Notes under the pieces: model-generated | Databases searched by the model: none | Seen by the model: the letters and a program-made list of their open reading frames with translations, nothing else | What the model was told of the DNA's origin: nothing | Assembly (NCBI RefSeq): GCF_014192275.1 | Contig: NZ_JACHXR010000010.1 | Coordinates: 1-64,000 of the forward strand | DNA from: Halomonas stenophila | Lineage (GTDB): Bacteria > Pseudomonadota > Gammaproteobacteria > Pseudomonadales > Halomonadaceae | DNA: 64,000 bases | Reading direction: 5' to 3' | Translations under genes and position numbers: made by a program | Shown here: positions 33,672 through 60,309 of the stretch, one piece after another | How positions within the stretch are numbered: position 1 is the stretch's first letter | How the letters are laid out: each line of letters opens with the position of its first letter

Positions 33672-33822
33672 CGATAGCGCCGAGGGGCGCCGGGGACAGG
33701 TCGAAGAGGGGGTCCTACGCCATGGATGGCGTCGGTAGCGCCCAGGGAGGGGTTCACAGCGCCCCCTCGCAGACCTGTCGACGGATCAGCCCTGAGCAAC
33801 AACCTTAATTGCGATTGCCCTG
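33672..33822 (+). repeat. Dispersed structured repeat, copy 1 (short form)
   Basis: Copy 1 of a family found four times in this window. The right end has a degenerate terminal repeat TTGCGATTGCCCTG (33809-33822); the left terminal repeat is lost. The core folds into a long hairpin. Stem P3 pairs CAGGTC (33697-33702) with GACCTG (33772-33777), and stem P4 pairs GAGGGGG (33706-33712) with CCCCCTC (33762-33768). Both stems differ from the other copies on both sides while staying paired. It lies in the divergent trhP/queC spacer, in sense with queC, and contains the GTTCACAGCG and GATGGCGTCGGTAG segments shared by the family. Confidence 0.88.
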
Positions 33823-33840
33823 GCCGAGGGGCGAGCCAGC

Positions 33841-33870
33841 TTGGCGCCTGTCCCTCTGGTCAAGTAGACT
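33841..33870 (+). promoter_or_regulatory. Probable sigma-70 promoter of queC
   Basis: TTGGCG (33841-33846), 18 bases, TAGACT (33865-33870). It is just outside repeat copy 1 and 58 bases before the queC ATG. The leader shows no preQ1-riboswitch-like pattern. Confidence 0.45.
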
Positions 33871-33927
33871 ATGGGGCCTCCCGGACCGGACCCCGGTTAA
33901 GAAAATTCTCCGACCCACAGGTATCCC

Positions 33928-34647
33928 ATGTCCAAGCCCGTCTCACCGGCCACCGTGGTGATCTACTCCGGTGGCATGGACTCCTACACCGTGCTGCACC
34001 GCGCCCTGCGCGAGGGCCGCGAGGTCCACGCTCTGTCCTTCGACTACGGCCAGCGCCATGCCCGTGAACTCGACATCGCCCGCGAGGTCTGCCGCAAGCT
34101 CGGCGTGCCCCACCAGGTGATCGACATCACCGCCATCCATGGCCTGATCGACGCCTCGGCCCTCACCGACAGCGGCCGCGAGCTGCCCGACGCCGACTAC
34201 GCCGAGGCCAATCTCAAGGACACCGTGGTCCCCAACCGCAACATGATCCTGCTGTCGCTGGCCATCGCCAAGGCCGTCAACATCGGCGCCGACCGGGTCG
34301 ACTACGGCGCCCATGGCGGCGACCACGTGCTCTACCCGGACTGCCGGCCCGAGTTCGTCGAGGCCATGAACGCCGTGGCCGGCATCGCCAACTTCGAGCC
34401 GGTCACCCTGCACGCGCCCTACCTGCGGGCCGGCAAGGCCGAGATCCTCGCCGACGGCCTCGCCATGGGACTCGACTACGCCGAGACCTGGACCTGCTAT
34501 CGCGGCGAGGCCCTGGCCTGCGGGCGTTGCGGCAGCTGCCGGGAGCGCCTGGCCGCCTTCGCCGCCAACGGCGTCCACGATCCCCTGGACTATGCTCGGC
34601 GGCCCGATGCCGCCGCCGGAGCCCCCGAGGATGCCGGCGATGTATAG
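33928..34647 (+). CDS. queC: 7-cyano-7-deazaguanine synthase QueC
   Basis: ATP-dependent conversion of 7-carboxy-7-deazaguanine to preQ0 in queuosine biosynthesis; 239 residues. The PP-loop motif [12 protein letters not shown] is at the start, and the C-terminal zinc site is visible as [29 protein letters not shown] and [14 protein letters not shown] are typical. First of queC-queE-queD; the queE start overlaps its stop by 8 bases. Confidence 0.95.
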
Positions 34648-35284
34648 CGTCAAGGAAGCCTTCTACTCGCTGCAGGGGGAAGGCGGCCAGGCCGGGCGCG
34701 CCAGCGTCTTCTGCCGCTTCGCCGGGTGCAACCTCTGGTCGGGCCGCGAGGCCGACCGGGCCGGCGCCGCCTGCCGCTTCTGCGACACCGACATCCGCGG
34801 CACCGACGGCCAGCACGGCGGGCGCTTCGCCAGCGCCGCGGCCCTCGCCGATCACCTGGTCGCGCTCTGGCCGGACGCCCCCGGCACGGCCACCCCCCAG
34901 GTCATCTTCACCGGCGGCGAGCCGCTGCTGCAGCTCGACGGTGCCCTGATCGAGGCCATGCACGGCCGCGGCTTCGATGTCGCCGTGGAGACCAACGGCA
35001 CCCTGCCGGCGCCCCCCGGCATCGACTGGCTGTGCGTCAGCCCCAAGGGCACCGCGCCCCTCGTCCAGACCTCGGGGGATGAACTCAAGCTGGTCTACCC
35101 CCAGGACGACGCCCCACCATCGCGCTTCGTCGACCTGGACTTCCGGCATTTCTTCCTGCAGCCCATGGACACCGCCACCCTGGGCGGAGGGGACGCCCCC
35201 CTGGCCGAGACCGTGAGCTACTGCCTGGGCCATCCCCAGTGGCGGTTGTCGCTGCAGACCCACAAGATCGCGGGGATCGACTGA
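34640..35284 (+). CDS. queE: 7-carboxy-7-deazaguanine synthase QueE (radical SAM)
   Basis: Radical-SAM enzyme making the 7-deazaguanine ring from carboxytetrahydropterin; 214 residues from the ATG at 34640. It begins [19 protein letters not shown], and the FeS cysteines follow a CX14CX2C spacing (GCNLWSG to CRFCDTD), the variant known from QueE rather than the usual CX3CX2[10 protein letters not shown] is the SAM-binding GGE motif. An upstream in-frame start lacks a good site; GAGGA lies about eight bases before the chosen ATG. Stop overlaps the queD ATG. Confidence 0.93.
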
Positions 35285-36129
35285 TGACGCTTTTCGTCAA
35301 CCGCCTCACCCACCTCGACGTCTCCCTGTGGTGCCCCGAGCGCGGCCTCATGGGCGCCAGCTGGCGCGTGGACGCGGAGCTCGACGGCGAGCTCGGCGGG
35401 GACGGCATGCTGTTCGACTTCGGCGAGGTCAAGCCGTGGATCAAGTCGCGCCTCGACCAGGGCGCCGACCACACCCTGCTGGTGCCCACCGAGGCCCCCG
35501 GGGTCAGCGTGCGCGACTGCCCCGAGGGCCTCTGCCTGCGCACCGAGACCCCCTATCCCATGGAGGTCCGTGGCCCCCGCCAGGCCTTCACCCTGCTCCC
35601 CTGGCCGACGATCACCCCGGATCGGCTGGCCGACCGGCTGGCCGCCGAGCTGATGCGCCAGCCGCCGGAGCGGGTCAGCGACATTCGCCTGACGCTCCTC
35701 GAGGAGGCCATCGAGGGGGCGAGCTACACCTACAGCCACGGCTTGCGCCGCCATGCCGGCAACTGCCAGCGGATCGCCCACGGCCATCGCTCGCGGCTGC
35801 ACGTCTGGCAGGACGGCGAGCGACGCCCCGAGCTGGAGGCCGACTGGGCACGGCAGCTGGCGGATCGCTACCTGGTGGACGAGGCGGATATCGCCGAGGG
35901 GCGCGAGGCCTCCTTCCTCGGCCGCCTGACCAGCCGCTACCAGGCCGACCAGGGCCGCTTCGCGCTGACCCTGCCCCGCGAACGCTGCGTGGTGCTGCCC
36001 ACGCCCACCACCGTCGAGCATATCGCCGCCTGGCTGGCCGGCGAGATCGCCCGGGAGACCGGCCGGGCCACCCGGGTCCAGGCCTTCGAGGGCATCGACA
36101 AGGGGGCCCTCGCGGAGGCGCGCCCATGA
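35284..36129 (+). CDS. queD: 6-carboxytetrahydropterin synthase QueD, long form
   Basis: Makes 6-carboxytetrahydropterin from dihydroneopterin triphosphate, the first dedicated step of the pathway. 281 residues, about twice E. coli QueD (about 120). The C-terminal half holds a recognisable synthase core: SYTYSHGLRRHAGNCQRIAHG and HGHRSRLHVW with the zinc histidines. The N-terminal half (VNRLTHLDVSLWCPERGL) looks like a diverged second synthase domain. Two-domain forms of this family are known in gammaproteobacteria. Start overlaps the queE stop as TGATG. Confidence 0.86.
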   Translation: MTLFVNRLTHLDVSLWCPERGLMGASWRVDAELDGELGGDGMLFDFGEVKPWIKSRLDQGADHTLLVPTEAPGVSVRDCPEGLCLRTETPYPMEVRGPRQAFTLLPWPTITPDRLADRLAAELMRQPPERVSDIRLTLLEEAIEGASYTYSHGLRRHAGNCQRIAHGHRSRLHVWQDGERRPELEADWARQLADRYLVDEADIAEGREASFLGRLTSRYQADQGRFALTLPRERCVVLPTPTTVEHIAAWLAGEIARETGRATRVQAFEGIDKGALAEARP

Positions 36130-36395
36130 CCGCGCGCCAGAACAGCGGCGGCTGCCGTCCCGGCTGCGGCGCCTGCTGCATCGCCCCGTCGATCAGCTCG
36201 CCGATCCCCGACATGCCGGCGGGAAAACCCGCCGGCGTACGCTGCACCCAGCTCGACGCCGACAACCTGTGCCGGCTGTTCGGCGACCCGCGACGCCCGG
36301 CGGTCTGCGCCCACTTCGATTTCGACCCCGACCTGTGCGGTGAGCATCGCGACCAGGCGCTGGCACGCATCGCCGCCCTGGAAGTCCAGACCTGA
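36126..36395 (+). CDS. YkgJ-like cysteine-cluster protein
   Basis: An 89-residue protein with a dense cysteine cluster near the N-terminus (CRPGCGACC) and further cysteines at RCTQLD, NLCRLFG, AVCAHF and DLCGEH. This matches the UPF0153/YkgJ zinc- or iron-chelating family, whose function is unclear. The ATG overlaps the queD stop by ATGA, so it is the fourth gene of the que operon. It ends before a strong hairpin. Confidence 0.85.
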   Translation: MTARQNSGGCRPGCGACCIAPSISSPIPDMPAGKPAGVRCTQLDADNLCRLFGDPRRPAVCAHFDFDPDLCGEHRDQALARIAALEVQT

Positions 36396-36424
36396 ACGGC
36401 CCTCCCCGCCCCCCTCCAAGACAA

Positions 36425-36463
36425 ACGCCCGGCGGCGCTCTCCTCTCGAGCGCCGCCGGGCGT
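36425..36463. terminator. Bidirectional hairpin between convergent genes
   Basis: A perfect 16-bp stem (ACGCCCGGCGGCGCTC and its complement, 36425-36440 and 36448-36463) with a 7-base loop sits between the ykgJ-like gene and the convergent BTAD gene. T-tracts are weak on both sides (GTTTGT on the minus strand). It probably stops transcripts from both directions. Confidence 0.7.
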
Positions 36464-36488
36464 CATGCTGCCTCGTTCCGTTGCGGTA

Positions 36489-39400
36489 TCAGTCTTCCAG
36501 ATCGGCGGTATGCGGCAGGCGCTTGTCGAGCAGGGTCCGCCAGCGCACCAGCACCGGCGCATCGCTGTGACTGACTTTCCCGAGCAGGGTCCGGAAGGCC
36601 TCCCGGGCCGCCTCGTCGCCGGGATCGACCAGGGTCAGCCAAGCTTCCAGGGCACACAGTTCCTGGTGCAGGTTGCCATCGCCCCGGGCCTGCTGCAGGG
36701 CCTGGTCGGTCAACGCCCGCACCTCCTCGGCGGGGTGGCCGAGACGGTGCCGCACGCGGGCCAGCTGGATCGCCAGCTCGGGCACGAACAGGGTGGTGCG
36801 CTCCCGGGCGATCATCAGGCACTGATCGAGATAGTCCTCGGCGCGGGCCAGCTCGCCCAGCGACACGCAGGCATCGACCAGCCACAGCGCCGGCCGCTGG
36901 TGGGGATCGCGGCCGGTGACCTCGGCGAGCTCCTCCAGGGCGGCCTCGATGCGGGTCAACCCCCCGCGGTCGCCCGATAACGCCCGCTGCCAACCCAGCA
37001 CGGTGCGCGACGAGGCCTGCCAGAGGTGCAGGTCCGGCGTGCCGGTGATCTCGAAGGCCCGCTCGGCGCGGTTGGCCGCCAGGTGCACGTGGCCCACCTG
37101 GCGGTACAGGGAGGCGGCATACATCAGCGCCATGGCCAGGCTGCCGGGATGGTTGATCCGCTCGGCGAGACGGATCGCCGACTCCACCTGCTGCTCGGCG
37201 CGACGGTAGTCGCCGCGCAGGCACAGGGCCCAGCCCTGGAAGCAGGCGGCGGCCACTTGGGGGTGGTCGGAGAACGGCAGCCACTCGATCATCATCGACA
37301 CATTGAGCGGATCGATCTCCTCGAGATGCTCATAGGCCTGCTGGATGCGTCCCGCCCAGTACTCGCAGCTCGCCCGGGCGAAGTCGGCCAGGCGGCGATA
37401 GCGGGGATCCTCGAGCTGCGCGGCCAGATCGGCCAGCCGCGCGGCCAGCAGGAAGGCATCGGCATGGGCGTTGCGCTGGCTGCAGCCCACCCACAGGCCC
37501 CACTTGACCAGGAAGGCCTGCTCCAGGTCCTCGCTGTCCTCCGGGGCCTCCTCGGCGCTGGTCAACAGCTCCCGGGCCCGCACGAAGCACTCGTGGGCGG
37601 TGGGCGAGCCATGCCCCTCGAGGGCGAAGGCCGCCTGGCCACGCACCGTGTGCAGGCTGATCTCACGCTCCTGCTGCCCCTCCACGTGACGCAGGCTGGC
37701 CAGGCCGAAGTCGGCCATGCGCAGCGCCGTGCGATTGGCGCTGACCTTGAGCGCCTCCCGGGCCGCCAGCTCGAAGTAGCGGGCGCCGCGGGCATAGTGG
37801 CCGCTGCGCCGCAGGTGGGTGGCGAAGTCGCCCGGATGGCGGCTGATCCATACCGGGAAGCGCTCCTCGATCAGGCCGACCACCTGCCGGTGGATATTGA
37901 CCCGCACGTCGCGGGGACAGGCCAGGTAGGCCGCCTCCTGGAGCAGTTGATGGGTGAACTGGTACTCGCGGCCCTCCTCGGCGTCCTCGGCCGGCTCGAT
38001 GATCTCCAGCCGACACATCTGCTCGAGGGCCGAGGTCAGCCGGGACATCTCCCAGCCGCTGCATTCGGCCAGGAAATCCAGCCGGAAGCGGCGCCCCAGC
38101 ACCGCGGCCACGTGGGCCACCTCTCGGTCGGCATCCAGCTGGTCGATGCGGCTGGCCAGCAGGCCGAGCAGGCCGCGGGGCAGCTCGTCCAGCTGGACGC
38201 TGCGCCCCTCGCGTCGATCCATGTCGACGCGGCGGCAGATCTCCTGGAGGTACAGCGGCACGCCGTCGCAGCGCTCGATGATCTGGCTGCGCAGCCGCGG
38301 GCTGAGATGCAGCCGGTAGCGCCGGGCGAGCTGCGACAGCAGCCGCGAGGCCTGCATGGGATCGAGACGCCCGAGGGTGATCTGCTGGTCCCAGTCGAGT
38401 CGCGCCGGGAGGGCCTCCCGGCCATGGTGGCTGGCCACCAGCAGGAAGGGACAGTTGATCGGCAGGCGGGCCTGGAGACCGGCCAGCACCTTGAAGGAGG
38501 GCTCGTCGAGCCACTGCAGGTCATCGATCATCAGCACCAGGGTGCGCTCGGCGGTCAACTGACCGATCAGCCGGTGCACCAGCCCGACCACCAGCTCCAC
38601 GGCCTCGCCGCTCTGGGCCAGGGCCGCCAGCTCGCGGGGCTCGCGCACCCCCAGGGCCTCTTCCAGCAGTAGCCGATGATCGTCGTCCCGCGCCACGCCC
38701 TCGATCCCGGCCAGGGCGTCGGCGTCGATGGCCCCGCCGAGGTGCCAGCGCAGCAGCTGGCGGGCCACGCCGTAGGGCTCCTGGACCGACAGGCGGGTGG
38801 TGGGCTGCCAGCAGATCGCCGCCTCGCGACTCTGCTCGAGCTGGCGAAAACCGACCAGCAGGGCCGACTTGCCGAGCCCCGAGGGGCCCCGCACCAGCAC
38901 GCTCTGCCGCAGCCCGATCCCGGCCCGGGCCAGGGCGTCGCGCAGGGTGCGCATCGCCGACTCGCGCCCCACCAGGCTCGGCGGCAGGGCCTCCCGGCCG
39001 CCCTCGTTGGCCCCGAGCACCAGCGCCCGCAGGCGCACCCGGCCATCGCTGGCCACCAGCCGCGAGGAGAGCCGGGGCTGCAGGTCCAGGGCCGGCGGCA
39101 TGTGCTGGCTGGCATCCTGGGAGATCACCAGCTCGCTGCCCTCGGCCGCGCTCATCAGGTCCAGGGCGCCCTGGGTCACCTGGCCCAGCGGATCGACCAG
39201 GTGGCGCTCGGGCAGGTAGACCACCCGACCGCTGTTGAGCCCGGCATCGAGGGCGATCCGCGGCGGCTCGCCCTCGCCGTTCCAGTGCCGCTGGCATTCG
39301 TCGGGCAGCACGCGGCGACAATGCTCGTAGAGGGCCACCAGCTCGGCGAGCTGGTGGGCCGGGCCATGGGTGCCGAAACAGGCCAGGCCCAGGCCGCCGG

Positions 39401-40388
39401 TGGCACCGGGCAACCAGAAGCCGCCCAGGTGGTGGCACTGCTGTTCCAGCCAGCGCATCAGCTCGATCTGCAGGGCCAGGCAGGCCCGGGCCTCGCTGCG
39501 CGAGGAGAGATCGGCGTCCAGGGTCAGGCGAATCGCCATCACCGAGAGCTGGCGCTGCTCGATCTCGTCCTCGCGCAGCGGCGAGCTGTCGGGGGCCAGC
39601 GCCCGGGAGAAGGCGCCGCTCGGCCCGGTGCTCTGCTCGGGCTTGCCGTCGGACCAGTAGCGGGCCAGTTGCAGGAAGGCCGGATCCGGCTGCTGGCCGG
39701 TCAGCGCCAGCAGCTGCAGGTAGGCATTGTACTGCTCGTGGGCGGCGGCCAGCTGGCCGTGCTCGGCCAGCTGGCGCACCAGCCGCTCGTGGAAGGGGCC
39801 ATAGCCGGAAAAGCGGCTGACCAGCGCCTGCAACAGGCTGTCCGGCAGCGGCTCGTGCTGCTCGAGCACGGCCTCGGCGAAACGGATCACCCGCTGACGC
39901 CACTCGTTGCGAACCTGGACCAGCCAGCGCTGGAAGTCCGCGCAGGCGGAGAGCTGCAGCTCCTCGACGAGATCGCCCTGGTAGCAGGTCAGCACCGCCT
40001 CCAGGCTCGACACATCGGCCGGGGCGTCGAGCAGGGCCTGCAGCTCATGGAGGTCGAAATGCCAGCTCTCGGGCAGCTTGAAGGCGATGGTCTGGCGGGA
40101 GACCGACAGCACCTGCTCGGCCTGCTCGCCCAGCGACTGCCGCAGGCAGTGCAGGGCGTGGCGCAGGTTGGTGCGACCCGATGACAGCCCCTGGTCCGGC
40201 CACAGCAGCTCGGCCAGGGTGGCCCGGTTGACCGGCTGATCGTGGAGCAGCAGGTAGACCAGCAACGCCTTGACCTTGTCATAGCTGAAATGGGTCAGGG
40301 CGTCGTCGCCCAGGGTCAGCGAGAAGTGACCGAAGAGGGCCAGGCGATCCTGGTCGTCATGAGTAACGGCGTCGGAAGCATCCCGCAT
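36489..40388 (-). CDS. BTAD/AAA-ATPase/TPR transcriptional regulator with degenerate cyclase-like domain
   Basis: A 1299-residue signalling ATPase of the SARP/MalT-like kind. Residues about 15-105 form an OmpR-type winged helix (FGHFSLTLGDDALTHFSYDK; NLRHALHCLRQSLGE) and about 110-250 a bacterial transcriptional activation domain. Residues about 285-440 resemble a class III nucleotide cyclase (IALDAGLNSGRVVYLP), but the two metal aspartates are missing (VMAIRLTLD and GATGGLGLACFG where cyclases have Asp). An ATPase follows: Walker A RGPSGLGKSALL near 498, Walker B LVLMIDDLQWLD near 618. The last 500 residues are TPR-like helical repeats. It starts 32 bases after miaE on the same strand. The target genes and signal are unknown. 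Confidence 0.88.
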   Translation of the reverse strand: MRDASDAVTHDDQDRLALFGHFSLTLGDDALTHFSYDKVKALLVYLLLHDQPVNRATLAELLWPDQGLSSGRTNLRHALHCLRQSLGEQAEQVLSVSRQTIAFKLPESWHFDLHELQALLDAPADVSSLEAVLTCYQGDLVEELQLSACADFQRWLVQVRNEWRQRVIRFAEAVLEQHEPLPDSLLQALVSRFSGYGPFHERLVRQLAEHGQLAAAHEQYNAYLQLLALTGQQPDPAFLQLARYWSDGKPEQSTGPSGAFSRALAPDSSPLREDEIEQRQLSVMAIRLTLDADLSSRSEARACLALQIELMRWLEQQCHHLGGFWLPGATGGLGLACFGTHGPAHQLAELVALYEHCRRVLPDECQRHWNGEGEPPRIALDAGLNSGRVVYLPERHLVDPLGQVTQGALDLMSAAEGSELVISQDASQHMPPALDLQPRLSSRLVASDGRVRLRALVLGANEGGREALPPSLVGRESAMRTLRDALARAGIGLRQSVLVRGPSGLGKSALLVGFRQLEQSREAAICWQPTTRLSVQEPYGVARQLLRWHLGGAIDADALAGIEGVARDDDHRLLLEEALGVREPRELAALAQSGEAVELVVGLVHRLIGQLTAERTLVLMIDDLQWLDEPSFKVLAGLQARLPINCPFLLVASHHGREALPARLDWDQQITLGRLDPMQASRLLSQLARRYRLHLSPRLRSQIIERCDGVPLYLQEICRRVDMDRREGRSVQLDELPRGLLGLLASRIDQLDADREVAHVAAVLGRRFRLDFLAECSGWEMSRLTSALEQMCRLEIIEPAEDAEEGREYQFTHQLLQEAAYLACPRDVRVNIHRQVVGLIEERFPVWISRHPGDFATHLRRSGHYARGARYFELAAREALKVSANRTALRMADFGLASLRHVEGQQEREISLHTVRGQAAFALEGHGSPTAHECFVRARELLTSAEEAPEDSEDLEQAFLVKWGLWVGCSQRNAHADAFLLAARLADLAAQLEDPRYRRLADFARASCEYWAGRIQQAYEHLEEIDPLNVSMMIEWLPFSDHPQVAAACFQGWALCLRGDYRRAEQQVESAIRLAERINHPGSLAMALMYAASLYRQVGHVHLAANRAERAFEITGTPDLHLWQASSRTVLGWQRALSGDRGGLTRIEAALEELAEVTGRDPHQRPALWLVDACVSLGELARAEDYLDQCLMIARERTTLFVPELAIQLARVRHRLGHPAEEVRALTDQALQQARGDGNLHQELCALEAWLTLVDPGDEAAREAFRTLLGKVSHSDAPVLVRWRTLLDKRLPHTADLED

Positions 40389-40420
40389 GGTGATCGGCCC
40401 TGCTGGGCGGCGCGGCGGCC

Positions 40421-41056
40421 TCAGGCCGGTACGCCGCTGTGAAAACGAAATGCCGTGTCCGGCATGGTGATCAGTTCGGCCTCGCGTTCGGCGAAGAAGG
40501 CGAGGCGTGTGTCGAGCGCCTCCGGGGCGAGCTGCCGCGCCAGCATCAGATAGTCCTCATAGTGGCGCCCTTCCGACTTAACCAGACCGCGATAGAACTT
40601 GGCAAGCTCGGCGTCCAGGTGCGGGATCAGGCGAGCGAAGCGCTCGCAGCTGCGCGCCTCGATCAGGGCCCCGACCAGCAGGATGTCGACCAGCCGGTGG
40701 GGCTCCTCGCCGCGCACGTGCCGGCGCAACCCCTCGGCATAGCGCGACGCCCCGATATGGCGGTAGACGATGCCCCGAGCCTCCATCAGCTTGATCACCT
40801 GCTCGAAATGCAGCAGTTCCTCCCGAGCCAACTGGCACATCCTGGACAGCAGCAGGGGCTGGTCCACATAGCGGTGGAGCAGGCTCATGGCGGTGGCGGC
40901 GGCCTTCTTCTCGCACTGGGCATGGTCGATCAGCAGCAGCTCGGGATTGGCGAGCGCCCAGTCGACCCAGGCATCGGGGGTGGCACAGGGCAGGAAGTCG
41001 AGCAGCCCCGGGGGGAGCAGGTCGTCGAGATCGGGCGCGGCAAGCATCGCAGTCAT
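40421..41056 (-). CDS. miaE: tRNA hydroxylase MiaE (tRNA-(ms2io6A)-hydroxylase)
   Basis: Non-haem di-iron oxygenase that hydroxylates the isopentenyl group of ms2i6A-37 in tRNA; 211 residues. The ferritin-like four-helix ligands are visible: IDHAQCEKKAAATAMSLLH, the ExxH of REELLHFEQV, IEARSCERFARL, and SEGRHYEDYLMLA. Second gene of DUF1289-miaE-BTAD on the minus strand, with a 26-base gap upstream. Confidence 0.94.
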   Translation of the reverse strand: MTAMLAAPDLDDLLPPGLLDFLPCATPDAWVDWALANPELLLIDHAQCEKKAAATAMSLLHRYVDQPLLLSRMCQLAREELLHFEQVIKLMEARGIVYRHIGASRYAEGLRRHVRGEEPHRLVDILLVGALIEARSCERFARLIPHLDAELAKFYRGLVKSEGRHYEDYLMLARQLAPEALDTRLAFFAEREAELITMPDTAFRFHSGVPA

Positions 41057-41082
41057 GTGGGGAAGTCCGGCGGCTCAAGGGT

Positions 41083-41517
41083 TCAGGAGAGGGGCACGGC
41101 CGCATGCCGGCGCGTCTCGGCGGCGGCCATCAGCTCGGCCGAGATCCGGGCATGCAGGGCCGCGGCGTCCAGCCGCTCCCGCGGCGCCAGGCCGTAGCGG
41201 GACAGGTCGCGGATCCGCCCGCGCCCCACCCGCAACAGCTCCACGGCCCGGGACAGCGGGGGCTGCTCGGCACGAAAGCGGATGCGATGGCGTTGCAGCT
41301 GGGCCTCCAGGGCCTCGGCATCCAGCACGACCAGGTGGCGCCCGGCCACCGCCACGCGGAGGGCATCGAGCTCGGCCATGCGCCGCTCGCGCGCCTCCCC
41401 TGCCAGGGCCGGCCAGTCGCGGATCTCGCCATCCAGGCGTTGGCAGCCCCGGCAGACGCGGTCGCCCACCGTGGTCGAACAGAGCCCCACGCAGGGTGAG
41501 GTGACGCGCCCGGCCAT
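41083..41517 (-). CDS. DUF1289 domain protein
   Basis: 144 residues. The N-terminus is a compact cysteine zinc motif, SPCVGLCSTT followed by VCRGCQRLDGEIRDW, as in DUF1289. The rest has an internal alpha-helical region (about 45-130) not seen in the shortest family members, so it may be a fusion or an extended form. Function unknown. First gene of the set with miaE, divergent from acnB. Confidence 0.8.
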   Translation of the reverse strand: MAGRVTSPCVGLCSTTVGDRVCRGCQRLDGEIRDWPALAGEARERRMAELDALRVAVAGRHLVVLDAEALEAQLQRHRIRFRAEQPPLSRAVELLRVGRGRIRDLSRYGLAPRERLDAAALHARISAELMAAAETRRHAAVPLS

Positions 41518-41625
41518 CGTCCGCTCCTCTCCGTTGATTCGTTATCCATGGTAACGCGGCACGGGCGCGCTGGCACCCTGCGGAGGGCGCAGACCAAAGT
41601 TCAAGGGCCGGCGGGAGGGGCGTCC

Positions 41626-41654
41626 TTAACATTGTCGACAGTTTCTTCTAGAAT
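41626..41654 (+). promoter_or_regulatory. Strong sigma-70 promoter of acnB
   Basis: TTAACA (41626-41631), exactly 17 bases, TAGAAT (41649-41654): one mismatch from consensus in each hexamer. Transcription should begin near 41661, giving a leader of about 93 bases that includes the perfect hairpin at 41685-41728. A short palindrome TGTCGACA lies in the spacer. Confidence 0.7.
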
Positions 41655-41684
41655 TGCGCCACCGTTGACCGTGTCGATTCACGC

Positions 41685-41728
41685 GCCGAGTCGGCCGCGC
41701 GACGGCCCCGTCGCGCGGCCGACTCGGC
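41685..41728 (+). promoter_or_regulatory. Perfect 20-bp hairpin in the acnB leader
   Basis: Bases 41685-41704 are the exact complement of 41709-41728, with a 4-base GCCC loop. The stem is inside the predicted transcript, ending 25 bases before the acnB start codon, and no T-run follows, so it is not an ordinary terminator. It may stabilise the mRNA or bind a protein; aconitase itself binds mRNA in E. coli, but its target there is in the 3' region. Confidence 0.75.
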
Positions 41729-41753
41729 TATCACCACCAATGAGGGCCACCAC

Positions 41754-44354: not shown

Positions 44355-44435
44355 GCCGGAGCCCACCCTTCGACTCCGATGCTCGCACCATCGAAGGCCC
44401 GCCGCCCCGGCGGCGCGGCCGGAGCCGATGACCGA

Positions 44436-44462: not shown

Positions 44463-44485
44463 GTACCCACCCGGCCGGCCACCAC

Positions 44486-44651
44486 CAGGGCTATCGCAGT
44501 TGCCTATAGCGAGGGGCGCCGGGGGCAGGCCGTAGAGGAGGTCCTACGCCAGGGATGGCGTCGGTAGCGCCCAGGGAGGGGTTCACAGCGCCTCCTCAAA
44601 GGCCTGTCGACGGATCAGCCCCGAGCGATCCTGCTATCTGCGATACCCCTG
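44486..44651 (+). repeat. Dispersed structured repeat, copy 2 (short form, complete, with flanking direct repeat)
   Basis: The best-preserved short copy, 166 bp. Terminal inverted repeats are CAGGGCTATCGCAG (44486-44499) and CTGCGATACCCCTG (44638-44651), 13 of 14 bases complementary. CGGCCACCACCA occurs at 44476-44487 and again at 44652-44663, a 12-base direct repeat suggesting target duplication on insertion. Stem P3 is CAGGCC (44526-44531) with GGCCTG (44601-44606); P4 is GAGGAGG (44535-44541) with CCTCCTC (44591-44597), and a smaller CTACGCC/GGCG-GTAG hairpin forms the tip. It sits between acnB and rraA, in sense with both. Confidence 0.92.
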
Positions 44652-44730
44652 CGGCCACCACCAAGGAGGGATGGCCTTCGCCGGCCGCTATGGCATCATC
44701 GAGACCTCATTCCGAGACGAGGACGTTGCC

Positions 44731-47170: not shown

Positions 47171-47178
47171 CGGCCGCG

Positions 47179-49488: not shown

Positions 49489-49540
49489 GGAAAGAGTCCT
49501 ACCAGGGATGGAGGCCGACATGATGCCAAAAGTCGCCGGC

Positions 49541-50317
49541 TCAGGGCACCACGACGACCGGCATGGCCAGACGGGACAGCCAGTCGGGGTCCTCGGCGAG
49601 CAGCCCGCGAAGCGCGTCGCGATGCAACAGCAGGGCGCCGCCGCGGCACACCGCCAGCCGACGCGTCAGCGCGGCTGCGTCGCGGCGGGGAATCGCCTCC
49701 GTGCCGTCGAAGAGCGTCGACAAGGGCGTGGGGACCGAAGGCGCGTCGCCGGAGGCCGGATCCACCAGCACCCGCAGCGGGCCCGGCATCGCCGGCGCCC
49801 TCCCCTCGTCCCAGACGACCACCGGACAGGGCGCGGAGAGGATCAGCCCCAGGCTGGTGGTGCCCAGCCGGGCGCCGAAGCGACCGGCCAGCCCGGCCTT
49901 GCCGAGCAGCATGATGTCCCCGGGGGTGGCGATGGACAACGCCTCGGGGATTACCCGGCCCCGGCTGATCTGCAGCGAATGCCGGAGCCGCCGCCCGGCC
50001 ACGGCGAGCTCCAGCGCCTGGCTGACCCGCTCCGCCTGGCGTGCCAGGCTCGCCTCGAGCTGGGGGGCGGTGAGGCGACGCACCTGGCCGGAATGGCCCC
50101 CCACCTCCCGGGCGAAGGGAAAGGCGACGCTGTGCAACAAGTCCTGATCCTCGACATAGACCGCGACCAGCTCCACCCCCTCCCGCTCGGCGAGACGCAC
50201 GGCGGCGGACAACGCCGCCAGGCTGTGGCGGGAGGCATCGAGCAGGGCCAGCACCCGGGCCACGGCCACGGCGATGTCGCCTTCCGTGCCGTCCTGATGC
50301 CTATCATTCTCGGCCAT
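49541..50317 (-). CDS. Universal stress protein-like protein
   Basis: A 258-residue protein with a Usp-type opening (VLALLDASRHSLAALSAAVRLA, then VELVAVYVED) and a nucleotide-site-like stretch MLLGKAGLAGRFGARLGTTS. Its second half looks like a further, diverged Usp-like domain, so it could be a tandem Usp. It starts inside the last codons of the Lon-like gene (14-base overlap) after GGGGAAG, suggesting coupling between the two. Stress role is inferred from the family only. Confidence 0.75.
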   Translation of the reverse strand: MAENDRHQDGTEGDIAVAVARVLALLDASRHSLAALSAAVRLAEREGVELVAVYVEDQDLLHSVAFPFAREVGGHSGQVRRLTAPQLEASLARQAERVSQALELAVAGRRLRHSLQISRGRVIPEALSIATPGDIMLLGKAGLAGRFGARLGTTSLGLILSAPCPVVVWDEGRAPAMPGPLRVLVDPASGDAPSVPTPLSTLFDGTEAIPRRDAAALTRRLAVCRGGALLLHRDALRGLLAEDPDWLSRLAMPVVVVP

Positions 50318-52712: not shown

Positions 52713-52836
52713 GGCGTATCTCCTGTGCCGATACGTCCAGTATGGAAGATGGCACCGCGACCCGCCCGACCCGGGTCATGGTCATCGCGATCGGCGCAGG
52801 ATGGCGCGACGCCGGCCGATCCCGGGCACCAGACGA

Positions 52837-52863
52837 CGACACCCGGGCAAGGCCCGGGTGTCG
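52837..52863 (-). terminator. Probable terminator hairpin after ppsA
   Basis: A perfect 12-bp stem CGACACCCGGGC / GCCCGGGTGTCG with a 3-base loop lies 31 bases past the ppsA stop on the minus strand. No T-tract follows, so termination may need Rho or be partial. Confidence 0.55.
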
Positions 52864-52894
52864 CGGTCGAGGTGGCGGTGGCGGCGAGGCCGGC

Positions 52895-55267
52895 TCAACC
52901 CAGCTTTTCGCCGGCCAGCATGAACCAGGTCTCGAGCACCGCATCGGGGTTCAGGGATACCGAGTCGATGCCCTGCTCCATCAGCCACTTGGCGAGGTCA
53001 GGGTGGTCCGACGGCCCCTGGCCGCAGATGCCCACGTACTTGCCCTGGGCCTTGCAGGCCTGGATCGCCATGGACAGCAGCTTCTTGACCGCCGGGTTCC
53101 GCTCCTCGAAGAGGTGCGCGACGATGCCGGAGTCCCGGTCGAGGCCCAGGGTCAGCTGGGTGAGGTCGTTGGAGCCGATGGAGAAGCCGTCGAAGTACTC
53201 CAGGAACTCGTCGGCCAGCAGGGCATTGGCCGGCAGCTCGCACATCATGATGACCTTGAGGCCGTCCTGCCCCCGTTCCAGGCCGTTGGCCGCCAGCAGG
53301 TCGACCACCTCGCGGGCCTCGTCGGTGGTGCGCACGAAAGGCACCATGATCTCGACGTTGTTCAGCCCCATCTCGTCGCGGACGCGCTTCAGTGCGCGGC
53401 ACTCCAGCTCGAAGCAGGGGCGGAAGGCGTCGGAGATGTAGCGCGAGGCCCCGCGGAAGCCGAGCATGGGGTTCTCTTCGCCGGGCTCGTAGAGCTTGCC
53501 GCCGATCAGGTTCTCGTACTCGTTGGACTTGAAGTCGGAGAGGCGCACGATGACCCGCTGGGGATAGAAGGAGGCCGCCAGGGTGGAGATCCCCTCCACC
53601 AGCTTGTCGACATAGAAGCTGACCGGGTCGGCATAGCCCGCGGTGCGCAGGTCGATGGTCTGCTGCAGGTCGGCGGGCAGGGTGTCGTACTCCAGCAATG
53701 CCTTGGGGTGCACGCCGATCATGCGGTTGATGATGAACTCCAGGCGGGCCAGGCCGACGCCGGCATTGGGCAGGCCGGCGAAGCCGAAGGCGCGGTCCGG
53801 GTTGCCCACGTTCATCATGATCTTGAAGGGGATCTCGGGCATGGCATCGACGCTGGTGACGTTGCGGTCGAATTCCAGCAGGCCGTCGTAGACATGGCCG
53901 GTATCGCCCTCGGCGCAGGACACGGTGACGTCGCGGCCATCGGCCAGGGCCTCGGTGGCGTCGCCACAGCCGACCACCGCCGGGATGCCCAGCTCGCGGG
54001 CGATGATCGCCGCGTGGCAGGTGCGACCGCCGCGGTTGGTGACGATCGCCGAGGCCCGCTTCATGATCGGCTCCCAGTCCGGGTCGGTCATGTCGGTGAC
54101 CAGCACATCACCCGCATGGACCTTGTCCATGTCGTCCGGCGAGAACACGACCTTGACGGTGCCGCGGCCGATGCGCTGGCCGATGGCGCGGCCGGTGACC
54201 AGGGTGCGCCCCTTCTCCTTGAGCTGGAAGCGCTCCAGCTTGCCGCCCTCCTGCTGGGAGACTACCGTCTCGGGACGCGCCTGGACGATGTAGAGGCTGC
54301 CGTCGTCGCCATCCAGCGCCCACTCGATGTCCATGGGACGGCCGTAGTGCTCCTCGATGGTCACCGCCTGGCGGGCCAGCGCCATGACCTGCTCGTCGTT
54401 GATGCTGAAGCGGCTGCGGTCGGCCAGGGGCACGTCGACGGTCTCCACCGACTTGCCGGCGCTGGCATCCTCGGTGTAGACCATCTTGATCAGCTTGGAG
54501 CCCAGGCTGCGGCGCAGCACCGCCGGGCGGCCGGCGGCCAGGGTCGGCTTGTGGACGTAGAACTCGTCGGGATTCACCGCGCCCTGTACCACGGTCTCGC
54601 CCAGGCCCCAGGAGGCGGTGACGAAGACCGCATCGCGGTAACCGGACTCGGTATCCAGGGTGAACATCACGCCGGCGGCGCCGGTCTCGGAGCGCACCAT
54701 CTTCTGCACGCCGGCGGACAGCGCCACGTTCTCGTGGGCATAGCCACGGTGCACCCGATAGGAGATCGCCCGGTCATTGAACAGCGAGGCGAACACCTCG
54801 TGGACGGCGCGCTTGATGTTGTCGAAGCCCTCGATGTTGAGGAAGGTCTCCTGCTGGCCGGCAAAGGAGGCGTCCGGCAGGTCCTCGGCGGTGGCCGAGC
54901 TACGCACCGCCACCTTGAGATTGGGGTGCCGGGCCAGCAACTGTTCGTAGCTGTCGCGCAGGGCCTGCTCGAAGGCCGGCGGCAGCGGGGTATCGATCAC
55001 CCACTGGCGGATCTGGGCACCGACCCGGGACAGCTCGGCGACGTCATCCACGTCCAGGGTGGCCAGCGCCTGGTTGATGCGGTCGTTGAGCCCCTCGTGG
55101 GACAGGAATTCCCGGTAGGCGTCCGCCGTGGTGGCGAAGCCACCGGGAACGGTGACGCCGGCACCGGCGAGGTTGGAGATCATCTCGCCGAGGGAGGCAT
55201 TCTTGCCGCCCACTCGCTCGACGTCGTCCATGCCCAACTGATCGAACCACAGAATGTACTCGTCCAC
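52895..55267 (-). CDS. ppsA: Phosphoenolpyruvate synthase
   Basis: Gluconeogenic enzyme making PEP from pyruvate with ATP; 790 residues, usual length. The N-terminal ATP-grasp part begins [20 protein letters not shown]. The phosphohistidine is near residue 418 in [18 protein letters not shown]. The C-terminal TIM-barrel part ends with [20 protein letters not shown] and the SLNPD loop. Divergent from ppsR across 245 bases, so both likely share a control region; regulation by PpsR is expected to be by phosphorylation of the protein, not transcription. Confidence 0.96.
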
Positions 55268-55512
55268 GTGAGACCCCCCTTGGATGGCGTCGCCGGGAAC
55301 CCTGGGCGCGCCGTCATGACTGGATGCTGGCGACTCTACCAGCGGCGATCCATATTCGCCATTGGTCTAACATCGAAGTCACTGGAGGTTTTTTACAACA
55401 TCGGCCCGCGAGAGCCGATTCCTGTAGTGCCCCCCCCCATGCCGCGGCTTGTGCCGTGATCGATCTCGCTCGACAATGGAGGCCATTCCCACAGCCTGAG
55501 CGACGTCCCGCC

Positions 55513-56346
55513 ATGCCCCGTACCGCCTTCTTCATCTCCGACGGCACCGGCATCACCGCCGAGAGCCTGGGCCGCAGCCTGCTGGCCCAGTTCGAGAACG
55601 TCGATATCCGCATGCTCACCAAGCCCTATATCGACAGCATCGAGAAGGCCAGGGGGCTGGTCGAGATCATCGAGGGCGCGGCGGTCAAGGACGGCGAGCA
55701 GCCGATCATCATCGACACCATCGTCGACCAGGACGTGCGCAACGTGATCCGCGATGCGCCGGGCTTCAAGGTGGACATCTTCTCCACCTTCCTCAAGCCC
55801 CTGGAGCAGGAGCTGGCCACCCACTCCTCCTACAGCGTGGGGCGGACCCACGCCATCGGCAGCGATGACGTCTACATGGACCGTATCCACTCGGTGCATT
55901 TCGCCCTGGACAACGACGACGGGGCCCGCACCCACCAGTACGACAAGGCCGACGTCATCCTGGTGGGCGTGTCGCGCTGCGGCAAGACCCCCTCCTCGCT
56001 CTACCTGGCGCTGCAGTTCGGCATCCGTGCCGCCAACTACCCGCTTACCGAGGACGACCAGGACGAGGACGGCAACCTCAAGCTGCCCAAGGCGCTGGAA
56101 CCCTACCGCCACAAGCTGTTCGGCCTGACCATCGATCCGCGGCGGCTGGCGGCGATCCGCCACGAGCGGCGCCCCAACAGCCGCTACAGTTCCATCGACC
56201 AGTGCGTACAGGAGGTCCAGCAGGCCGAGGCCCTCTACCGGCGCATGCATATCCCCTTCATCGATACCACGCGCTTCTCGGTGGAGGAGATCTCCACCCG
56301 GATGATCGCCGAGACCGGCATCAATCGGCGCTTCTCGCCGCGCTAA
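55513..56346 (+). CDS. ppsR: PEP synthase regulatory protein (kinase/pyrophosphorylase)
   Basis: A 277-residue bifunctional enzyme that switches PEP synthase off by ADP-dependent threonine phosphorylation and on by pyrophosphorolysis. It opens with [20 protein letters not shown] and has a P-loop [11 protein letters not shown] near residue 152, both characteristic of the PSRP family. The ATG at 55513 is used; the frame extends upstream but without homology. Ends three bases from the convergent CoA-transferase gene. Its substrate enzyme PpsA is encoded on the other side of the shared spacer. Confidence 0.95.
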
Positions 56347-56349
56347 CCC

Positions 56350-57555
56350 TTACCTCACCACCCCGGCCCTTCTGAGCCGGGCGATATCGTCCGCGGACAG
56401 GCCCAGCTCGGCCAGCACCGCATCGCTGCCCTGCCCGAGGCCGGGCGGCGGGAGCTCGCTGGTGACGCTGTCGCCATCGAAGCGCAGGGGGTTGGCCACC
56501 TGGGGGATGCGCCGCTCCCCGTCCGTCACCTCCCGGCACAGGCCACGGTGGCGTACCTGGGGATCGGCGAAGACCTCGGTGAGGGTGTTGATGGGGCCGG
56601 CGGGAATGCCCCTCGCCTCGAGTTCGGTGAGCCAGGCATCCCGCTCGCCGGCCAGCAAGGCCTCGGCGATCCTCGGCACCAGCACCTCGCGGTTGCCGAC
56701 CCGCGCGGCATTGGTGGCAAAGGCCGGGTCCTCGGCCCAGTCGGGATGACCGAGCAGGTCCGCGAGTCGCGCGAACTGGGTATCGTTGCCCACGGTCAGC
56801 ACCAGATGCCCGTCGGCACAGGCGAAGGCCTGATAGGGCACGATATTGGGGTGGGCATTGCCGTGGCGGTGGGGATCCTGCCCGGTGACCAGGGCATTGA
56901 GCGCCTGGTTGGCCAGGGTGGCCAGCTGGACGTCGAGCAGCGCCACGTCGATGTGGCGCCCCCGGCCGGTGCGGCGACGCTCGTGCAGTGCGGCCAGCAC
57001 CCCGATGGTCGCATAGAGCCCGGTCATCACGTCGGTGATCGCCACGCCGGTCTTCATGGGCATGCCGTCGGACTCGCCGGTCAGGCTCATCAGCCCCCCC
57101 ATGGCCTGGATCATGAAGTCGTAGCCGGCGCGATGGGCATAGGGGCCGTCCTGGCCGAAACCGGTGATGGAGCAGGCAATCAGCCGCGGATTGCGCTCGC
57201 GCAGGCGCGCCGGGTCGAGGCCGTAGCGGGCCAGGCCACCGACCTTGAAGTTCTCGAGCAGCACGTCGGCCCCGGCGGCCAGTTCACGCACCAGCGCCTG
57301 GCCGTCCGGGGTGGCGATATCCACGGCCAGCGACTGCTTGCCGCGGTTGGCGCAGAGGTAGTAGGCCGCCTGGCGCTCGGCGGCGTGCTCACCGTCCAGC
57401 CAGGGCGGCCCCCAGCCCCGGGTGTCGTCGCCCCGCTCGGGATGCTCGATCTTGATCACCCGGGCGCCCAGGTCGGCCAGCAGTTGGCCGGCCCAGGGGC
57501 CGGCCAGTACCCGCGACATGTCCAGCACCACCACGCCGTCCAGTGGTCCACTCAT
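56350..57555 (-). CDS. CaiB/BaiF (class III) CoA transferase, probably for glutarate
   Basis: A 401-residue CoA transferase. The start MSGPLDGVVVLDMSRVLAGP and LLADLGARVIKIEHPERGDD are typical of the family; the catalytic aspartate is probably in AITDVMTGLYA. Its neighbour upstream on the same strand is glutaryl-CoA dehydrogenase, matching the gcdH-gcdG arrangement in Pseudomonas, so activation of glutarate is likely. The ATG at 57555 has GAGGAG at six bases; the frame continues upstream into repeat copy 3, which is not coding. Other dicarboxylic acids are possible substrates. Confidence 0.88.
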   Translation of the reverse strand: MSGPLDGVVVLDMSRVLAGPWAGQLLADLGARVIKIEHPERGDDTRGWGPPWLDGEHAAERQAAYYLCANRGKQSLAVDIATPDGQALVRELAAGADVLLENFKVGGLARYGLDPARLRERNPRLIACSITGFGQDGPYAHRAGYDFMIQAMGGLMSLTGESDGMPMKTGVAITDVMTGLYATIGVLAALHERRRTGRGRHIDVALLDVQLATLANQALNALVTGQDPHRHGNAHPNIVPYQAFACADGHLVLTVGNDTQFARLADLLGHPDWAEDPAFATNAARVGNREVLVPRIAEALLAGERDAWLTELEARGIPAGPINTLTEVFADPQVRHRGLCREVTDGERRIPQVANPLRFDGDSVTSELPPPGLGQGSDAVLAELGLSADDIARLRRAGVVR

Positions 57556-57569
57556 CTTGACTCCTCGCT

Positions 57570-57812
57570 CACTCGGGGCTGATTCGGCGACAAGCCCCGA
57601 AGTGTCGGACCATCGAGGAGGCGCTGTGAATATCTCCCTGTACGCTACCGACGCCCTGCTGCGCTCTCGCGTCCTGCTCCGCTTGCAGGGCCGGTGCTGG
57701 CCATCCCTGGCCAGCCCGTTCGGAGGAGTCCTCCTCACCCATGGCGTAGGACCTCCTCTTCGGCCTGTCCCCAGCGCCCCTCGTTAGAAATGTCTTTGCA
57801 ACTCCGATGAGG
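57570..57812 (-). repeat. Dispersed structured repeat, copy 3 (long form)
   Basis: A long-form copy reading on the minus strand, about 243 bp; ends are less exact than in copies 2 and 4. Its left terminal repeat is degenerate (57799-57812) and the right one is lost beside the CoA-transferase start. Stem P3 (minus strand) pairs CAGGCC (57762-57767) with GGCTTG (57591-57596), kept by one G-U pair; P4 pairs 57752-57758 with 57615-57621. It contains the extra hairpins of the long form, including TGGCCAGGGATGGCCA. It fills the space between gcdH and the CoA-transferase gene. Confidence 0.88.
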
Positions 57813-57816
57813 CAAT

Positions 57817-58998
<1,182 letters not shown>

Positions 58999-59017
58999 GG
59001 TGGCGCTCCTATAAATT

Positions 59018-59040
59018 TCTACATTTCGTATAAATGTAGA
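59018..59040 (-). promoter_or_regulatory. Inverted-repeat operator upstream of gcdH
   Basis: TCTACATTT (59018-59026) and AAATGTAGA (59032-59040) are perfect inverted arms with a 5-base spacer, 20-42 bases before the gcdH start. The AT-rich stretch TTTATA toward the gene could be a -10 element. The regulator is not known; no copy occurs at the neighbouring genes. Confidence 0.6.
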
Positions 59041-59089
59041 CCAAAAGCGCGCGATTGCCAAGCCCGGATCCCCCTGCGGCGTCAGGGGA

Positions 59090-59992
59090 TCACTGCCCCT
59101 CCCCCGCCCGGTAGAGGGTCTGGATGCTCGAGAAATCCAGCCCACCGTTGCCCTGGGCGCTGTGCAGGGCGAAGAGGTTACGCGCCTGGGAGCCCATGGG
59201 CACGCTGGCCCTGGCCTTGAGCGCCAGCTCCCAGGCCAGGCCCAGGTCCTTGGCCATCAGGTCGGTGAGAAAGCCCCCCTGATAGCCCCGGGAGGCCGCC
59301 GAGCCCTCCATCACCCCCGGCCAGGGATTGTAGACGTTGAGCGCCCAGTTGCCGCCGCTGCTCTGCTTCATGATCTCGGAGAGCACCGCCGGGTCCAGGC
59401 CGTTCTTGACGCCCAGGGACAGCGCCTCGGCAGTGCCGCTCATCAGGATGCCGAGCAGCATGTTGTTGCAGATCTTGGCCACCTGGCCGGCACCGATCTC
59501 GCCGGCATGGAAGATGTTCTTGCCCATGCCCTCGAGCACCGGTTTCGCCTTCTCGAAACCGGCTTCCTCGCCGCCGACGATGAAGGTCAGGGTGCCGGCC
59601 TTGGCCCCGCCGACCCCGCCGGAGACCGGCGCGTCCAGGTAGGTCAGGCCGCGCTCGGTAGCGGCGGCGCCCACCAGCCGGGCATCGTCCGGGGAGATGG
59701 TCGAGGCCTCGATGATCAGCGGCTCGTGGCCCAGGGCGTCGAGCAGGCCGCCCTGGCCGTCGCGGCCCAGGTAGAGGCCGCGCACATGGACGCCGGCGGG
59801 CAGCATGGAGATGACCACCTCGGCGTCGCGGCAGGCCGCGGCGGCGCTCTCGCCGCGCCGCGCGCCCTGCCCCTCGAGGTCCGCCATGGCGGCCTCGACC
59901 AGGTCGAAGACGCAGAGGTCATGCCCCGCGCCCAGGAGGTTGGCGGCCATGGGCGCGCCCATGTTGCCGAGTCCGATGAATGCGATCTTCAT
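59090..59992 (-). CDS. mmsB: 3-hydroxyisobutyrate dehydrogenase
   Basis: NAD-dependent oxidation of 3-hydroxyisobutyrate to methylmalonate semialdehyde in valine breakdown; 300 residues. Rossmann start [37 protein letters not shown] substrate loop, [16 protein letters not shown] with the catalytic lysine, and the end [20 protein letters not shown] are typical. AAGGAG precedes the ATG. Same strand as gcdH but separated by 91 bases and the gcdH operator. Repeat copy 4 is immediately upstream. Confidence 0.93.
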
Positions 59993-60047
59993 GGCGTTGC
60001 TCCTTGGTGTCTTGTGAGTTGTAGCAGAGAGTGAGAGCCAGACCCCA

Positions 60048-60309
60048 CAGGGCTATCGCAGTTGAGTCTGACGAGGGGCGCCGGGGACAAGCCGAAGAGG
60101 AGGTCCTACGCCAGGGGTGAGGAGGATTCCTCCGAACGGGCTGGCCACGGATGGCCAGCACCGGTCCTGCAAGCGGAGCAGGATGCGAGAGCGCCGCAGG
60201 GCGTCGGTAGCGCCCAGGGAGGGGTTCACAGCGCCTCCTCGATGGTCCGACACTTCGGGGCTTGTCGACGGATCAGCCCCGAGAGATACCGCTATCTGCG
60301 ATAGCCCTG
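60048..60309 (+). repeat. Dispersed structured repeat, copy 4 (long form, complete)
   Basis: The best-preserved long copy, 262 bp, with perfect 14-bp terminal inverted repeats CAGGGCTATCGCAG (60048-60061) and CTGCGATAGCCCTG (60296-60309). Stem P3 pairs CAAGCC (60088-60093) with GGCTTG (60259-60264), a compensatory change relative to copy 2; P4 pairs GAGGAGG (60097-60103) with CCTCCTC (60234-60240). The long form adds hairpins such as TGGCCACGGATGGCCA and CCTGCAAGCGGAGCAGG, and CCGACACTTCGG on the other arm. It lies between mmsB and the hydrolase gene, antisense to both. No clear flanking direct repeat. Confidence 0.92.

Follow-up and report, generated by a model that had tools for sequence, protein, structure and literature searches.

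Four intergenic repeats in a 64,000-nt stretch of Halomonas stenophila DNA (contig NZ_JACHXR010000010.1, positions 1–64,000; hereafter, the window) are copies of a folded RNA element, dispersed in this and other genomes of the Gammaproteobacteria, whose two apical hairpin loops keep the pattern A-N-G-G-A-N. Selection prefers the strand bearing these loops, the distance between them is conserved, and a subset of the copies has transposed as miniature elements with ends from insertion sequences of the ISAs1 family. Judging from loop pattern and spacing, the dispersed RNA probably presents a paired site to one dimer of CsrA/RsmA, and would act both locally and as a collective decoy. Even without CsrA, many genera of the class share an RNA structure with covarying pairs and no match in Rfam 15; it is apparently undescribed, and may go under another name elsewhere.

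Fold and covariation of the element

The original prediction had placed in the window four stretches with a common core, all of them intergenic. The four are present at those places, share the segments that it listed and lie between genes predicted with a crude gene finder; the flanking genes, named with NCBIfam and Pfam, are unrelated among copies. Copies 1 and 2 have a short form, and copies 3 and 4 a long form with an additional multi-hairpin insert within the loop of hairpin P3. The terminal inverted repeats (TIRs) were also as anticipated, being perfect over 14 bp in copy 4 and with one mismatch in 14 in copy 2; copy 1 keeps only the right TIR, with two mismatches, its left TIR being degenerate, and copy 3 has neither. 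Compared to dinucleotide shuffles, the RNA fold of copies 4 and 2 has z scores of -5.8 and -4.4, respectively.

RNAalifold predicted, from 29 short copies, 36 pairs, 14 of them with double compensatory changes, in a fold consisting of a long stem (P0-P1-P2) that leads to a three-way junction and from there to hairpins P3 and P4. What is conserved in the supposed hairpin element is an RNA fold with two ANGGAN loops that had gone unnoticed in the original prediction. P0 pairs GGGGC with GCCCC; P1 pairs GACAGGUC with GACCUGUC, with variants such as GGCAGGCC/GGCCUGCC; P2 pairs GAGGGGG with CCCCCUC or GAGGAGG with CCUCCUC; and P3 is strongly variable with compensation (CCUACGCC/GGCGUCGG, CCUUUGCC/GGCAAAGG, CUUUUUCC/GGAAAAAG and others). 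A further hairpin, with the pattern GGCCA-NGGA-UGGCC, is contained in the long insert; among 28 genuine inserts read by eye, after the exclusion, also by eye, of 171 chance matches of a loose pattern, 27 contain CANGGATG and one (L011) contains CATGGAGG. A second, optional hairpin with the sequence GATGGTCCGACACTTCGGGG, or one close to it, is seen on the 3′ side of P1 in L025, L044 and copies 3 and 4 of the window, and occurs with or without the P3 insert. Three loci from the H. stenophila genome (L269, L271 and L272) have lost P3 and P4 but retain P0 and P1 along with the conserved internal loop, which suggests either a separate function for the basal portion of the element or a loss of its apical portion by slippage.

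Covariance models were built from 29 short copies of H. stenophila (R1), from 66 sequences of Halomonadaceae (R2) and from class-wide sequences (R3), and changes were counted in alignments of 66 Halomonadaceae sequences (A6) and 55 class-wide sequences (A9); a further alignment, A8, with two opposite-strand rows, was left out of the counts. In A9, 96.2% of the cells are paired and 33 of the 37 pairs show double changes, with 688 double-change cells versus a mean of 186.5 after shuffling (0/500) and at most 147 in slid controls; the corresponding figures for A6 are 98.1% of the cells, 25 of 37 pairs, and 268 cells versus 56.4. The junction pairs at A9 columns 71-93 and 72-92 are invariant GC and CG pairs in 55/55 rows. 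G.U cells outnumber A.C plus C.A cells by 133 to 8 in A9 and by 173 to 12 in A6 (63 to 8 and 45 to 12, respectively, without two near-invariant G.U positions). Because G.U pairs become A.C mismatches on the opposite strand, these results indicate selection on the GGA-loop strand, and the simplest reading is that it acts on RNA.

The apical loops as putative CsrA sites

Both apical loops read A-N-G-G-A-N with few exceptions, whereas the stems vary. The P4 loop in A9 has A in 55/55 rows, followed by a variable position (G43 U9 A2 C1), by G, G and A in 55 rows each, and by a second variable position (U28 A11 C11 G5), and its closing pair is C-G in 55/55; the P3 loop has A in 52/55, then G35 U15 A4 and one gap, G, G and A in 55/55 each, and N, with a C-G closing pair in 53/55. 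Among the 66 rows of A6, the A, G, G and A of P3 appear in 66, 66, 65 and 66 rows, and those of P4 in 66 each. In the window, the P3 and P4 loops are AUGGAU and AGGGAG in copy 1 and AGGGAU and AGGGAG in copy 2, and the P4 loop of copy 3 is closed by a C.A mismatch. At least two occurrences of CANGGANG are found in 50/55 rows of A9 and 64/66 of A6, and the two GGAs are 19–21 nt apart in 50/50 of these two-site rows in A9 and 19 nt apart in 64/64 in A6.

According to a review on CsrA (PMC7652899), the CsrA consensus obtained by systematic evolution of ligands by exponential enrichment (SELEX) is RUACARGGAUGU, with loops mostly of six nt; the loop bound by RsmE is ANGGAN; one CsrA dimer can bridge two sites on one RNA that are 10–63 nt apart, with an optimum of more than 18 nt; and most SELEX hairpins have four or fewer contiguous pairs. 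The element contains what is expected of predicted CsrA/RsmA sites, namely, an ANGGAN hexaloop closed by C-G and a second site at the proper spacing, and we favor CsrA as the ligand because pattern, closing pair and spacing fit in two loops. The H. stenophila genome contains one csrA gene.

Copy number and gene context

The genome of H. stenophila (4.34 Mb in 34 contigs) contains 51 occurrences of GTCCTACGCCA, versus 13 of the reversed control, and gave 55 blastn matches with copy 4 and 66 matches with model R1, these last including fragments of long copies and one opposite-strand self-match. With a landmark script in which flanks served to tell copies apart, 74 copies were counted, 46 short and 28 long, in agreement with the many copies per genome that had been anticipated. 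This count demands CANGGA in P4 (without that demand, it rises to 75) and, therefore, the loop statistics were drawn only from A6 and A9. Allowing up to three substitutions, 26 of the 74 copies have both TIRs, seven have one and 41 have none.

Most copies (60/74) are located between co-directional genes, 41 of them in sense and 19 in antisense orientation (p = 0.006), with nine others between divergent and five between convergent genes; the 41 TIR-less copies include 25 sense versus 11 antisense (p = 0.03). The 3′ end of a gene lies within 60 nt of the approximate edge of the element in 44 of the 64 copies flanked by such an end. Gene orientations come from a crude codon-usage gene finder, and copy L023, inside a called open reading frame (ORF), was retained. 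Antisense copies retain the loops.

ISAs1-type ends and mobility

Copies ending in CAGGGCWATCGCAGTTG belong, as miniature transposons, to an insertion sequence of the ISAs1 family. Their terminal repeat occurs 61 times in the H. stenophila genome with up to two mismatches, versus 0 for its reversed control, and the same ends bound, among the matches listed, elements of 1148–1196 bp in Vreelandella rituensis and Halomonas sp. Y3; the ORFs from two of these, of 1182 and 1196 bp (L134 and L178), match NF033564 (transpos_ISAs1) with E values of 3.1e-111 and 4.9e-118. Of the 34 TIR-bounded rows from H. stenophila, which include mini-elements of 63–88 bp and, once the spurious 260-bp pairing L067 is discounted, correspond to 33 elements, 15 are flanked by a perfect 10-bp target duplication and 20 by one with at least 9/10 matches (mean of 0.58 and maximum of 4 in 1000 shuffles); none of the 34 has a duplication of 8, 9, 11 or 12 bp with at least k-1 matches. 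The site of copy 2, the only one examined in this respect, is empty in two relatives (G698 and G666), each with one imperfect copy of the target, and the flanks are 97% identical on the right and 97% and 94% identical on the left. The target duplication of copy 4 is now unrecognizable (6/10 positions).

No homolog of the transposase from Halomonas sp. Y3 was found in the H. stenophila genome at E ≤ 1e-80; homologs exist in 2/101 genomes of the family, with 44–45% identity. In mini-elements of 63–73 bp, little or nothing of the core is left. Additionally, V. rituensis contains miniature elements of 109–122 bp (L151, L186, L193, L197 and L202) with the same TIRs, another interior and no RNA core, and Halomonas sp. 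NO4 has a 161-bp element (L139, from position 4313, minus strand) with the same TIRs and a different, hairpin-rich cargo.

The original prediction likened the repeats to miniature inverted-repeat transposable elements (MITEs) with ends from no family that could be named. The likeness holds for the copies ending in CAGGGC, which have an ISAs1 parent and 10-bp duplications, and does not extend to the 41 of 74 copies that have neither end at up to three substitutions. The MITE interpretation is also incomplete because the core occurs class-wide, with such an end in 0/44 class-wide loci, and because some sites are common to several species. As to the names, the lack of a named family is sustained for Rfam and not for the ends, whose parent can be assigned to the ISAs1 family. 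A single homogeneous MITE family was rejected, given the 41 copies lacking both TIRs.

Distribution and shared sites

Copies also occur outside the window, both in the same genome and in other Halomonadaceae, and beyond the family across the class, where the element is multi-copy. Model R1 found it in 62/101 genomes and 15/24 genera of the family. With R2, 61/194 genomes were positive in a sample of the order, 57 of them from outside the family, and 52/369 in a sample of the class, 50 of them from outside the family; with R3, 31/398 genomes were positive in a sample of the phylum, and all 31 are labelled as of the same class or nearer. The candidates scored per genome were limited to at most 37 (family), 19 (order), 10 (class) and nine (phylum), so that copy numbers from family to phylum are lower bounds. 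Out of eight genomes reached through named loci, the only positive was a metagenome-assembled genome (MAG) of Pseudohongiella (Gammaproteobacteria), with 50 R3 matches, and the model had no match in those of Pseudomonas sp. BGI-2, Pantoea, Aestuariibacter, Chromobacterium, Sphingopyxis, Limimaricola and Bradyrhizobium. Class-wide copies have the same junction, loops and spacing; their long outer stems differ among genomes.

When 53 foreign copies were compared with those from H. stenophila, eight matched one of them by both flanks, with 73–96% identity, at six sites (L108/L087, L109 and L121/L018, L122/L079, L127 and L130/L102, L207/L002, and L161/L085), and 14 further pairs matched by one flank only. 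The L161/L085 site is shared with Halomonas maura (flanks 94–96% identical), and L109, L121 and L122 are from genomes of other genera of the sample, two sites being common to genera. At the site of L102, L127 and L130, P3 changed from CCUAUGCC/GGCAUCGG to CUUUUGCC/GGCAAAAG with retention of the ANGGA loop; gene conversion among copies could mimic such a change.

Arrays and pairs of the element were found in other genomes. Locus L363 (G142:C1:93000-97000) contains, in positions 1288–2652, six tandem units of 227 bp, each with one element and the REP-like sequence GTAGGAGCGGCTTCAGCCGCGA, which by its look we take to be a classical repetitive extragenic palindromic (REP) sequence; the presence of both in each unit indicates that two types of repeats were amplified together. 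In the Pseudohongiella MAG (G711), positions 1313–2637 of L362 comprise around 4.6 tandem element-bearing units of 287 bp beside a nine-copy CAGTCAC tract. In L303, L305 and L307, from genome G276, two copies lie in opposite orientation and around 240 bp apart, resembling the pairs found in bacterial interspersed mosaic elements (BIMEs).

Features of the four copies

The coordinates of the copies and of their parts are collected in Table 1.

Table 1. Position of the four copies of the element, and of their structural features, in the window.
Feature	Position	Strand	Evidence or remarks
Copy 1, structured core P0-P1-P2-P3-P4, short form	33684..33794	+	R1 134.1 bits, R3 106.3 bits
Copy 1, P3, loop ATGGAT (33722-33727)	33714-33735	+	Window sequence
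Copy 1, P4, loop AGGGAG (33744-33749)	33741-33752	+	Window sequence
Copy 1, remaining right TIR	33806..33822	-	Two mismatches; end-sequence scan
Copy 2, left 10-bp target-site duplication, CGGCCACCAC	44476..44485	+	Present once, in imperfect form, where G666 and G698 have the empty site
Copy 2, complete ISAs1-type miniature element, short form	44486..44651	+	14-bp TIRs at both ends
Copy 2, structured core	44513..44623	+	R1 131.9 bits, R3 107.4 bits
Copy 2, P3 hairpin, ANGGAN loop AGGGAT (44551-44556)	44543..44564	+	
Copy 2, P4 hairpin, ANGGAN loop AGGGAG (44573-44578)	44570..44581	+	
Copy 2, right 10-bp target-site duplication, CGGCCACCAC	44652..44661	+	
Copy 3, long form without TIRs	57569..57788	-	Sense; flanked by an acyl-CoA dehydrogenase gene and a CoA-transferase gene
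Copy 3, loop of the insert hairpin, AGGGAT	57703-57708	-	
Copy 3, P4 loop, AGGGAG	57634-57639	-	C.A mismatch as closing pair
Copy 4, long form, perfect 14-bp TIRs	60048..60309	+	Antisense to both neighboring genes
Copy 4, hairpin of the long insert, loop ACGGAT (60147-60152)	60141..60159	+	
Copy 4, P4 hairpin, loop AGGGAG (60216-60221)	60213..60224	+	

Interpretation and alternatives

We propose that the element would be transcribed mostly between, or just 3′ of, co-directional genes, and that a single CsrA/RsmA dimer would be bound by its P3 and P4 loops, one on each face. By tethering CsrA to its host RNA, a copy would alter the stability of the upstream part or how the downstream gene is translated; jointly, the many copies would titrate CsrA. 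In the Halomonadaceae, some cores were captured between ISAs1-family ends and from then on dispersed as miniature transposons generating 10-bp target duplications; the copies without TIRs would have spread as well. More tentatively, the element may be a family of RNAs that spreads by itself across the class and distributes preformed sites for CsrA dimers, joining mRNAs to the Csr/Rsm network and setting by its copy number the amount of free CsrA, with the ISAs1 transposase as an additional carrier in the Halomonadaceae. If CsrA does bind, more than 100 additional sites (74 copies with two loops each) confront this global regulator in a genome where one csrA gene was found, and a transposon has been distributing such sites. 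The element would in that case exemplify, in concrete terms, how mobile DNA can connect genes to a network of post-transcriptional regulation.

Several observations weigh against the involvement of CsrA. The full 12-nt RUACARGGAUGU is present in only 7/55 rows of A9 and 1/66 of A6 (8/121), and the stems of the element are long and stable, unlike those of most SELEX hairpins. The link with csrA is weak, with the gene present in 48/52 element-positive versus 265/317 element-negative genomes of the class (one-sided p = 0.07), and G481, a 98% complete genome with six matches to the element, gave no match in the csrA search. Alignments A6 and A9 were fitted to the model, and searches favor its consensus; most rows of A6 score above 100 bits and, therefore, a copy there would have been found even after the loss of a single loop, whereas class-wide matches score mostly 49–70 bits and copies that lost one loop might be hidden among them. 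Also, 19 of the 60 copies between co-directional genes run antisense and could work only via antisense transcripts, and three of the six sites shared by both flanks are antisense to the flanking genes, the point that is hardest to reconcile with a model of mRNA elements acting only in cis.

An unlikely alternative is that of a hairpin repeat similar to REP or to the enterobacterial repetitive intergenic consensus (ERIC), with loops that a transposase or some other protein would recognize in single strands of DNA or RNA, and covariation resulting from selection for mobility with no link to CsrA. Repeats of this kind would agree with the many dispersed copies, the opposite-orientation pairs in G276, the tandem arrays of G142 and G711, and the retention of loops in antisense copies, and might explain the spread of the TIR-less copies. 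However, they would not account for two separate loops that each keep A-N-GGA-N, a C-G closing pair and the optimal spacing of CsrA sites, while the excess of G.U over A.C favors RNA from a single strand, and some copies occupy the same place in different species, with two sites shared across genera. Even less probable is another structured RNA, such as a small RNA, a ribozyme, or a ligand- or ribosomal-protein-binding RNA, in which the GGA loops would serve for tertiary contacts or for another protein. The strong conservation of the junction nucleotides, with the invariant pairs described above, goes beyond the needs of a CsrA site and would suit such an RNA; nevertheless, the N positions of the loops vary and their A and GGA hardly do, which fits CsrA better than a tetraloop contact, and around 74 copies, those in the window beside unrelated genes, argue against a ligand-responsive switch.

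The hairpin might finally be a mere by-product of the inverted repeats of an ordinary ISAs1 MITE devoid of an RNA role, a possibility already disfavored and very improbable at present. TIRs, 10-bp duplications, an empty site and ISAs1 parents are all characteristic of a MITE, and the short relatives of 63–73 bp dispense with most or all of the core; conversely, 41 of the 74 H. stenophila copies have neither TIR, a TIR-less core exists in many other families of the class, and a MITE needs neither compensatory changes nor invariant loops. The reading as a paired CsrA/RsmA site remains the one that we prefer.

Comparison with known families

A search of the window with the 4227 families of Rfam 15 produced no match at the gathering threshold, and membership in an Rfam family was rejected accordingly. 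Permissive scans of five loci from H. stenophila and 10 distant loci gave only sub-threshold matches on the strand opposite to the element, namely, Ysr224 (RF02770; 29.1 of 70 bits, E 0.007) and mir-266 (30.8 of 80 bits, E 0.03). Residence on plasmids or phages was likewise discarded, as copy 4 had no blastn match in either collection, where near relatives were perhaps left out. In searches of the open-licence papers of PubMed Central (PMC), we met no description of the element.

The element resembles ISAs1-family MITEs in its TIRs, which are those of the ISAs1 elements from V. rituensis and Halomonas sp. Y3, the 10-bp duplication, the empty site and the lack of a transposase of its own, and differs from them by a structured RNA core that also occurs without TIRs and in a much wider range of taxa. 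REP sequences have a GTAG/GGAG tetranucleotide at the foot of the hairpin and an associated tyrosine transposase, and ERIC sequences a 127-bp consensus. Like REP/BIME and ERIC, the element is a short, palindromic intergenic repeat with tens of copies, sometimes paired or arrayed; unlike them, it has a three-way junction with two ANGGAN hairpins, other ends and class-wide covariation. By eye, no GTAG/GGAG foot was seen at the base of the window copies, and a REP-type transposase was not searched for.

Among the intergenic repeats of Pseudomonas fluorescens, R178 is described in PMC2718517 as 101 bp long, with an internal inverted repeat and 9 to 28 copies per strain. Identity of the element with R178 seems unlikely, given that R3 had no match in Pseudomonas sp. 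BGI-2. The small RNAs CsrB/CsrC and RsmX/Y/Z, and Aln1a-c from Alteromonas (PMC5864184), resemble the element in bearing several A(N)GGA motifs that lie in loops or unpaired stretches and bind, or are expected to bind, CsrA/RsmA. Membership in the CsrB/RsmZ family was rejected, since the element occurs as tens of dispersed copies of two sites each. R178 and Aln1a-c are the nearest items met in print and seem different from the element. Whereas small RNAs of the CsrB/RsmZ type gather many sites on a dedicated molecule, each dispersed copy of the element carries one rigid pair.

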